From: Actinomycetota bacterium | Lineage (GTDB): Bacteria > Actinomycetota > Actinomycetes > Nanopelagicales > Nanopelagicaceae | Assembly (NCBI GenBank): GCA_026393035.1 | Contig: JAPLAY010000026.1 | Span: forward strand, 1-34,390 | Reading direction: 5' to 3' | DNA: 34,390 bases | Shown: in pieces, positions 13,144 to 14,938 of the stretch | Position numbering within the stretch: the stretch's first letter is position 1 | Layout of the letters: every line of letters begins with the position of its first letter | The notes under the pieces: generated by a model | Told to the model about the DNA's origin: nothing | Databases searched by the model: none | The model's input: only the letters and a program-made list of their open reading frames with translations | Made by a program: the position numbers and the translations under genes

Positions 13144-13503
13144 TTAATCCCATTCCAATCCGCCGCGGCGCCAGACATAGGCATAAGCAACAAAAACAGT
13201 TCCGATAAAGATTGCCATTTCAACTAATCCAAAGAGACCGAGTTTGTCGAAAGTGACCGCCCATGGATATAAGAAAACAATTTCAATATCAAAAACAATA
13301 AATAACATAGCTGTTAAGAAATATTTAACTGGAAAACGTCCGCCACCTGCTGCTTGTGGTGATGGTTCGATACCGCATTCATATGCTTCGAATTTTGCTC
13401 GGTTGTATCGCTTTGGTCCTGTGATCGCTGCAGCAACAACTGAAAATGCTCCGAAGCCGAAGCCAATTGCGCCAATTACCAGTATCGGTACGTATGGGTT
13501 CAC
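13144..13503 (-). CDS. nuoA: NADH-quinone oxidoreductase subunit A (first gene of nuo operon)
   Basis: Three-helix membrane subunit (119 residues) at the junction of the two complex I arms. The conserved loop YECGIEP is at residues 41-47, and [12 protein letters not shown] in the second helix is diagnostic. The start codon is GTG at 13503-13501; no purine-rich Shine-Dalgarno site precedes it (the eight bases before it are C/T only on the coding strand), pointing to a very short or absent leader. It heads the operon, 84 bases downstream of the menG stop, and that gap carries a palindrome and a candidate promoter. Confidence 0.96.
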
Positions 13504-13511
13504 GGGAAGGG

Positions 13512-13517
13512 AGTCTA
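13512..13517 (-). promoter_or_regulatory. Candidate -10 box of the nuo operon
   Basis: TAGACT on the coding strand, eight bases before the nuoA GTG. It matches the TANNNT form of actinobacterial sigma-A-type -10 boxes. A partial -35 (TGTGAC, or TTGTGA one base further upstream) lies 18-19 bases upstream, inside the 19-bp palindrome. A transcript from here would have a leader of 0-2 bases. Inferred from sequence only. Confidence 0.45.
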
Positions 13518-13536
13518 CGGGTTTAGGCGTTCTTGG

Positions 13537-13555
13537 TCACAATTATGAATTGTGA
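13537..13555. promoter_or_regulatory. Perfect 19-bp palindrome upstream of nuoA (candidate operator)
   Basis: TCACAATT-ATG-AATTGTGA: two 8-base arms with a 3-base centre and no mismatch. It lies in the 84-base menG-nuoA gap and its nuoA-proximal arm covers the candidate -35. No T-run follows on either strand and the stem is AT-rich, so a rho-independent terminator is unlikely. The half-sites are oriented opposite to the Rex pattern (TTGTGAA-N6-TTCACAA) and the CRP pattern (TGTGA-N6-TCACA), so I do not name a regulator. Confidence 0.5.
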
Positions 13556-13587
13556 ATCTCGTCGAGGTGTAGGACATGTGGCATCTA

Positions 13588-14280
13588 TCACGGCTTGAAG
13601 CCCGTATGAATGGCCACAATGCCAAAGGTCAAATTGCGCCATTGGACGTTTTGGAATCCAGCCGCTGTCATTAACTGGGCAAGTCCCGATTGATTTGGCC
13701 AGGCCAAAATGGATTCGGCCAAATAAACATATGCATCGGGATTAGATGAAACTTTTCTGGCGATTGGTGGAAGTGCGCGCATCAAATAGCGCATATAAAT
13801 AACTCTAAAAATTTTATTAGTTGGTTGTGAAAATTCAACAACAACCATTCGACCACCGGGTTTTAAAACTCGAAGTGATTCTTGTAAAGCCTTCAGCGTG
13901 TTTGAAGTATTTCGTAAACCAAAAGAGATTGTTGTTACATCAAATTCATTATCTTTAAATGAAAGTGCGAGCGCATCACCTTGAGTGAATGCTAAATCTG
14001 GATGTCGCTTTCGTCCGGCATCTAACATTCCCTTCGAAAAATCTAAGGGAATAACATCTGCGCCAGCATCTGCTAGTGGTCGACTTGATGATCCAGTTCC
14101 TGCTGCGATATCTAGAATTCGCATTCCAGATTTTGGTTCAATTATTGAGGTCGCGACTTTGCGCCATGCTTTAGTTCGACCCAGGCTAAGCAAGTCATTT
14201 AACAAGTCATATCGACCGGCAACCCCATCAAACATCGCCGAAACCTCTTCGGGCTCTTTGCCTAGATCAGCTCTACTCAC
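13588..14280 (-). CDS. menG: Demethylmenaquinone methyltransferase
   Basis: Last step of menaquinone synthesis: SAM-dependent C-methylation of demethylmenaquinone (UbiE/MenG family). Class I methyltransferase fold with the SAM loop ILDIAAGTG at residues 55-63, the acidic PLDFSKGML region after it, and the family motifs DVTTISFGLRN and LRVLKPGGRMVVVEFS. An ATG exists at 14313, but the GTG at 14280 gives VSRADLGKEPEEVSAMFD, which aligns with the usual actinobacterial beginning, so I take 230 residues. No clear Shine-Dalgarno precedes it. It lies directly upstream of nuo on the same strand, and the divergent bioY begins 73 bases away. Confidence 0.93.
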   Translation of the reverse strand: MSRADLGKEPEEVSAMFDGVAGRYDLLNDLLSLGRTKAWRKVATSIIEPKSGMRILDIAAGTGSSSRPLADAGADVIPLDFSKGMLDAGRKRHPDLAFTQGDALALSFKDNEFDVTTISFGLRNTSNTLKALQESLRVLKPGGRMVVVEFSQPTNKIFRVIYMRYLMRALPPIARKVSSNPDAYVYLAESILAWPNQSGLAQLMTAAGFQNVQWRNLTFGIVAIHTGFKP

Positions 14281-14353
14281 GCGTATATTCTCGCGGTAGT
14301 AGGCTCTGACCACAAATTAAGGGAAGCAGAAAATCCAGAAAGAGGTCGATTAA

Positions 14354-14938
14354 ATGGTTCAGATTTCACAAGTAAGTACTTTGAAGTCAGCGGTAATTTC
14401 ACGCACAACTGCGATTACCCAGATCTCACTAATTTTGGGTGGCACAATCTTCTTGGCAGTAATGGCTCAAATATCTTTTCCAATTCCTGGTTCTCCAGTT
14501 CCATTCACTGGACAAACGCTGGGTGTTCTCTTACTTGGAACTGCATACGGCGCAAGTCTTGGATTTAGCACAGTCGCTTTCTACCTATTAATGGGTATTG
14601 CTGGTGCCCCAATATTTGCATCCGGCTCACATGGTTTTGAAAAAATTGCAGGTGCTACTGGTGGATATCTAGTTGGCATGTTGATTGCATCCCTCGTCCT
14701 TGGCGCTCTTGCTGGTCGCAAATGGGATCAAAAAATCAAGACTGTTATCCCAACAATGATTATCGGAAATGTAATTATTTTTACCGGCGGATTAATTTGG
14801 CTCCACCAATACACTGGTCAAAGTTGGGGTTGGACTGTCGACAAGGGATTAACGCCATTCATTCTTGCCGAGTTTATTAAGATTGCAATTGCTAGTACTG
14901 CGCTACCTGCTGTTTGGCGATTAGTTGCGAAGCGTTAA
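14354..14938 (+). CDS. bioY: BioY-family biotin transporter substrate-binding subunit
   Basis: Membrane S-component of an energy-coupling-factor transporter, which captures biotin and in most bacteria works with EcfT and two ATPases. 194 residues and about six hydrophobic helices. The family signature GSPVPFTGQTLGVLLLGTAYG and a downstream GATGGYLVGM block identify it. A Shine-Dalgarno-like AGAGG sits 8 bases before the ATG. No EcfT/EcfA or biotin-synthesis gene is in the window, so the partner is elsewhere or the protein acts alone, as some BioY proteins can. Probably co-transcribed with menF, 19 bases downstream. Confidence 0.9.
   Translation: MVQISQVSTLKSAVISRTTAITQISLILGGTIFLAVMAQISFPIPGSPVPFTGQTLGVLLLGTAYGASLGFSTVAFYLLMGIAGAPIFASGSHGFEKIAGATGGYLVGMLIASLVLGALAGRKWDQKIKTVIPTMIIGNVIIFTGGLIWLHQYTGQSWGWTVDKGLTPFILAEFIKIAIASTALPAVWRLVAKR

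Follow-up and report, generated by a model that had tools for sequence, protein, structure and literature searches.

We think it somewhat probable, from comparisons among related genomes, that the nuo promoter described here is regulated mainly by an orthologue of CRP acting through a CRP/GlxR-type site at 13577-13592, and that the 19-bp palindrome at 13537-13555 would not be a stand-alone operator. The conserved unit is not the whole palindrome: only its promoter-side arm is strictly kept in relatives. The palindrome is probably a conserved -35/TGTGA element joined to a loosely kept A/T-rich flank, and the predicted CRP-type site, which lies 21 bp upstream of it and was absent from an earlier note on this DNA, is the stronger and better-supported candidate control element. 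The relevant features of the window (the whole stretch of 34,390 nucleotides that was analysed) are listed below in the direction of transcription.

13588..14313, minus strand: menG (demethylmenaquinone methyltransferase; family by NCBIfam), upstream of nuoA and in the same direction
13577..13592, minus strand: predicted CRP/GlxR-type site CGTGAT-AGA-TGCCACA (CGTGA-N6-CCACA), overlapping the menG stop codon, centre at -79.5
13553..13556, minus strand: TTCA, -51 to -48, within and just beyond the distal arm
13537..13555, minus strand: palindrome TCACAATT-CAT-AATTGTGA, as read on the minus strand; its centre, 13546, is at about -41 relative to the predicted transcription start
13548..13555, minus strand: distal arm TCACAATT, weakly constrained
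13537..13544, minus strand: promoter-proximal arm AATTGTGA, which with the next CC contains ATTGTGACC and overlaps the -35 hexamer
13535..13540, minus strand: predicted -35 hexamer GTGACC, 4/6 to TTGACA, called from position and conservation
13518..13534, minus strand: 17-bp spacer, unusually conserved
13512..13517, minus strand: predicted -10 hexamer TAGACT, 4/6 to TATAAT
13144..13503, minus strand: nuoA, which opens the nuo operon and whose GTG start follows the -10 by 8 nt; transcript probably leaderless or nearly so

The palindrome itself is as the earlier note had described it: TCACAATT-ATG-AATTGTGA at 13537-13555 has 8-base arms without a mismatch and lies in the 84 bp that separate menG from nuoA, two minus-strand genes. 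As that note had proposed, it overlaps the -35 of what is likely the nuo promoter. A genome scan for further copies found TCACAATT-N3-AATTGTGA a single time in the whole assembly (1.26 Mb, 86 contigs). The exclusion of textbook CRP/FNR and Rex patterns also holds for the palindrome itself, in orientation as in spacing, because its half-sites are everted and separated by nine bases (TCACA-N9-TGTGA), not inverted as in TGTGA-N6-TCACA, the arrangement of the CRP/FNR family. As a bare repeat, however, it is no rarer than chance. The window contains three perfect inverted repeats (arm of at least 8, loop of 0-12) vs. 6.8 ± 2.9 in 30 first-order Markov copies of the window, and 0.43 repeats with such an arm and a 3-nt loop are expected from the same copies. 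The palindrome is notable instead for where it lies, over the -35 within a promoter block that is strongly conserved. An intrinsic terminator of menG, or an RNA hairpin, was considered and rejected: the arms are A/T-rich, a T run is absent, and the scan gave no terminator-like site at 13537-13555.

The arms were compared within a congeneric set of 27 genomes, in 25 of which the menG-nuoA gap was readable; the other two loci were L013 (G018), with only 55 bases before nuoA, and L021 (G013), which is without nuoA. Parsimony changes were counted per column on a tree of nuoA and menG coding sequence from 17 genomes, with 101 fourfold-degenerate sites (mean 3.95 changes) as the neutral reference; all P values are uncorrected and treat columns as independent. 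The conservation of the arms in close relatives, which the earlier note had wanted checked, turned out to be one-sided. On the proximal side, ATTGTGACC (-38 to -30), which includes a TGTGA half-site, had 2 changes in 9 columns vs. 35.6 expected, whereas the distal arm had 21 changes in 8 columns vs. 31.6 expected (P = 0.05). Exact 8-bp arms occurred in only 3 of the 17 aligned congeners, namely the present metagenome-assembled genome (MAG) and its sister genomes G003 and G010 (with a 4-nt centre in G010); conservation of both arms is thus not supported by the comparison. The sole clearly slow part of the distal side was TTCA, a segment picked after the counts were seen, with 5 changes in 4 columns vs. 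15.8 expected (P = 0.008, uncorrected). TTCA being slower than neutral, the distal side may be read by some factor.

The promoter block around the proximal arm was much better preserved. The predicted -10 had 0 changes in 6 columns across the 17 genomes and the spacer had 20 changes in 17 columns (67 expected), while the count for the discriminator was neutral. All 17 clade genomes, the present MAG among them, have TAGACT 8 nt upstream of the nuoA start codon, and 7 of the 8 other readable congeners have either TAGACT or TAGAAT there, at 6-8 nt. The promoter call is a prediction from this conservation and from position; a sigma-70 consensus scan listed no promoter here, the hexamers matching at 8/12 positions. 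Because only 8 nt, without a ribosome-binding site, separate the -10 from the nuoA GTG, the nuoA transcript is probably leaderless or nearly so. The family assignments of menG and nuoA were confirmed (NCBIfam). A small ORF in the conserved block, ending GTG ACC TAY AAC GCC TAA, was rejected because G003 and G010 have its frame closed or shifted (alignment by eye).

The CRP-type site reads CGTGATAGATGCCACA, with a GTG-N8-CAC core and 8 of 10 consensus positions; its right half, CCACA, is imperfect. When its columns were located by pattern for the parsimony count, the CGTGAT and TGCCACA arms had 0 changes in 13 columns (51 expected) and the centre evolved neutrally, with 11 changes in 3 columns. 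These same columns, with conserved arms around a free centre, were recovered in a pattern-free alignment. The left arm is partly held by coding too, because the TGA within CGTGA is the menG stop codon; TGCCACA is not so held. Across the 27 genomes, CGTGATNNNNGCCACA occurred 18 times, 17 of them before nuoA, and its reversed control once. Counted at 8/10 or better with a GTG-N8-CAC core, the site was present in 17/17 clade genomes (0.09 expected from shuffled gaps), in 4 of the 8 other readable congeners (0.01 expected from shuffles), the further four having none, and in 1 of 13 other family loci scanned (0.04 expected from shuffles; family loci L115 and L117 left out). Within the clade its centre lies at -79.5 (8 genomes), -80.5 (3), -90.5 (5) or -99.5 (1). 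The similar sites in the four other congeners are centred at -42.5, -43.5, -49.5 and -49.5, and a CRP-like site in a genome of another genus (G033) at -42.5. On the tree, the shifts can be accounted for by roughly one event of 11 bp and one of 9 bp, together with single-base indels, and because just two larger indels underlie it, the apparent helical phasing of the positions is suggestive only.

A protein that could read this site is common in the genus. A CRP-family HTH scored over cut-off in 21 of the 27 congeners and in 9/9 near-complete ones, with one CRP/GlxR orthologue per genome over the family cut-off. No CRP scored over cut-off in the present MAG, which is 82.7% complete; the six congeners without a CRP-type HTH, this one included, are 58-87% complete. 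The best solved relative of the orthologue is 3d0s (CRP/FNR family; E 2.4e-81), which we take to be M. tuberculosis CRP, and the two share an identical ASRETVNKALADFA stretch that presumably contains the recognition helix. Further down are 4byy, 4cyd and 3r6s, the last of which we assume to be GlxR. Three other domains gave no hit in any of the 27 congeners: Rex (PF06971; positive in 7 of 14 control genomes), class III adenylate cyclase (PF00211; 5 of 14) and CYTH (PF01928; 11 of 14). The retention of CRP in a genus where neither a class III nor a CYTH-type adenylate cyclase was detected prompts the question which signal this CRP responds to. The strict CRP consensus YGTGANNNNNNTCACR had 3 sites in six genomes, all three inside ORFs, while its reversed control had 13; a large CRP regulon built on this consensus is therefore disfavoured. 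By eye, the regions upstream of crp in 8 genomes held no consensus CRP site.

Under CRP control, nuo transcription would start from the TAGACT/GTGACC promoter, no more than about two bases from the nuoA GTG, and the genus CRP/GlxR orthologue would bind CGTGAT-N3-TGCCACA, the site on the menG stop codon, whose distances fit class I control (upstream, alpha-CTD-contacting). Class I positions are those of E. coli CRP. The proximal arm would then be the conserved -35 region of the nuo promoter with its TGTGA half-site, and the distal arm a loosely constrained A/T-rich flank keeping TTCA, which would have become a perfect mirror of the proximal arm solely in the sub-clade of the present genome. Activation seems somewhat more likely than repression because the site is upstream. 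As at actinobacterial CRP/GlxR promoters (M. tuberculosis CRP, C. glutamicum GlxR, M. smegmatis Crp1), a GTG-N8-CAC site lies upstream of nuoA; unlike at those promoters, it takes the form CGTGAT-N3-TGCCACA at -80, -90 or -100, on a menG stop codon, and unlike in those systems it occurs in a genus where the cyclase and CYTH domains went undetected. In a M. smegmatis crp1 mutant, nuoA, nuoF and nuoN were up 7- to 14-fold, and the authors suggested that Crp1 represses nuo (excerpts of PMC12713383). Crp1 controls nuo in that species; control in the present lineage is predicted from site conservation and the presence of CRP in relatives.

Alternatively, nuo could have its own dimeric regulator, of an undescribed kind, with the palindrome as operator and TCACA-N9-TGTGA at -41 serving class II activation or a block of the -35. 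We regard this as unlikely, although several observations lean its way: TCACA-N9/10-TGTGA stands at nuoA in 10 of the 17 congeners, 7 or 8 of the 8 arm positions match in 9 of the 17, TTCA is slow, the centre falls at -41, and a CRP-like site occupies about the same slot (-42.5/-43.5) in G005, G016 and the other-genus G033. The everted pattern is also commoner in the genus than its reversed control, with 31 copies in the 27 genomes, 9 of them at nuoA, vs. 3. But the proximal arm, being promoter, would be conserved anyway, the distal arm as a whole is near neutral, and the arms match at only 4/8 positions in G006 and G019 and 5/8 in G023, where the promoter is intact. Of the 22 copies away from nuoA, 16 were inspected and 15 lie inside ORFs, the other being intergenic (G025), so the excess over the control outside nuoA is mostly coding sequence. 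A profile of the palindrome (R1; built from 13 of the 17 clade sequences, leaving out one duplicate, two gapped and one divergent row) matched nuoA in 16 genomes with E up to 8.5e-4, and a profile of the -35 to -10 block (R2; 10 distinct versions) matched it in 17, two further weak R2 matches being the nuoA promoters of G025 and G021. Scoring covered the top 150 candidates in each genome, out of several hundred to about 1,500, such that weak copies may be missed; among those scored, R1 had 35 other, weaker matches (best E 0.005). Eleven of the 13 inspected were in ORFs and two were intergenic, before an rpmH-like gene (L183) and an atpA-like gene (L184). The matches inspected (16 of 22 pattern copies, 13 of 35 R1 matches) included no second conserved target or regulon of the palindrome, and none of the 18 window ORFs scanned was a DNA-binding regulator. 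A historical version, in which such a regulator replaced CRP in the class II slot once the CRP-type site had moved to helically phased positions at -80, -90 and -100, strikes us as distinctly unlikely; if true, it would mean a two-input complex I promoter in streamlined freshwater actinobacteria.

Two further readings take the arms apart. The proximal arm might be part of a different, degenerate operator, TTGTGACC-N3-AACGCC, with its centre at -28.5. This operator would correspond to the Rex operator of Streptomyces nuoA1 and would now be read by CRP or serve as promoter only. At S. avermitilis nuoA1, Rex binds TTGTGACCTGCTTCACAT with a footprint from -42 to -16 over the -35, so that TTGTGACC covers the nuo -35 there as in the present clade (excerpts of PMC5355995). 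The centre triplet of the putative operator had 1, 3 and 6 changes, against 0 or 1 in each of the 14 flanking columns; G022 and G017 read TTGTGACCTGC, and G009 has TTGTTATCTAATTCACC. TGTGA-N6-TCACA-like sites were found at 53 of 75 named actinobacterial nuoA upstream regions vs. 0.66 expected from shuffles, a count that mixes Rex and CRP sites, which look alike, draws on lineages that are not independent, and may include sites within the upstream gene. Yet the second half of the Streptomyces operator is TTCACA and that of the present clade AACGCC, and the right half ACGCC misses TCACA at 3/5 positions in 16 of the 17 genomes. The palindrome arms are everted relative to the Rex operator, the Rex domain was found in none of the 27 congeners, and the block was not seen by eye in other family genera. 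We therefore hold this reading to be quite improbable. Because TANNNT at the matching offset, 24, accompanied 0 of the 50 named-actinobacterial sites scoring 9 or 10/10 (one without readable context), homology to the Rex operator is only a lead, not a result, by which the proximal arm may be what is left of one half of an old Rex/CRP-type operator, and not half of a palindrome. The distal arm, for its part, might be core promoter, either an A/T-rich UP element or the -35 (TTCACA, TTGAGA or TTCATA) of a second, overlapping promoter with a TAYAAC -10. The A+T content is 73% at -56 to -36 vs. 49% just upstream, and such a -35 precedes TATAAC, TACAAC or TGTAAC by 16-17 nt in 11 of the 17 genomes. 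This second -10, however, ends in C, not T, its second and third positions belong to the fastest-changing columns of the block, and the present genome has AAGAAC there, all of which makes the reading highly doubtful.

These comparisons map, in a form that can be tested, the main promoter of respiration in a streamlined lineage from fresh water. On the map are a promoter that is likely leaderless, a conserved CRP-type site that stands 1, 11 or 20 bp nearer or farther from one species to another, and, in a genus without detected Rex, a -35 block like the Streptomyces nuo Rex operator. Candidatus Nanopelagicus and Planktophila are among the closest named relatives by NuoB, and we therefore place the genome in or near the Nanopelagicus/Planktophila group of freshwater actinobacteria. 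This lineage is abundant in lakes.

In six loci (L004, L007 and L015-L018), the distal segment with TTCA is nearly duplicated over 11 bp, which repeats TTCA at 11-bp spacing and shifts the CRP-type site by about one helical turn. The arrangement resembles PhoP/CRP promoters of M. tuberculosis, such as whiB1, where PhoP boxes are 7-bp direct repeats with an 11-bp period beside a CRP site (excerpts of PMC9645806), in that the near-repeat adjoins the CRP-type site in these six genomes. It differs in that there is one near-repeat only, which is absent from the present genome. An OmpR-type direct-repeat reading was dropped: response regulators of that type occurred in 9/9 genomes tested, so nothing was discriminated.

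Some smaller observations concern the surroundings and the scattered matches. A BioY-family gene at window positions 14354-14938 (plus strand) is divergent from menG, in a neighbourhood of menaquinone and cytochrome c biogenesis. The intergenic TCACA-N9-TGTGA copy in G025 adjoins an apparent tRNA end (by eye). Upstream of the rpmH-like gene (identified by eye), L183:1299-1341 (G015) carries two AATTGTGACCC copies with a 14-bp period; these resemble the nuo -35 block, and similar matches occur in G004 and G022. Finally, the gap before the AtpA-like gene (identified by eye from the start of its product) holds a near-perfect hairpin, CAGAATTCACAATTTGTGAATCTG, at L184:1258-1279 (G020), whose arms resemble those of the nuo palindrome around a shorter centre, with equal-score matches in G024 and G014.
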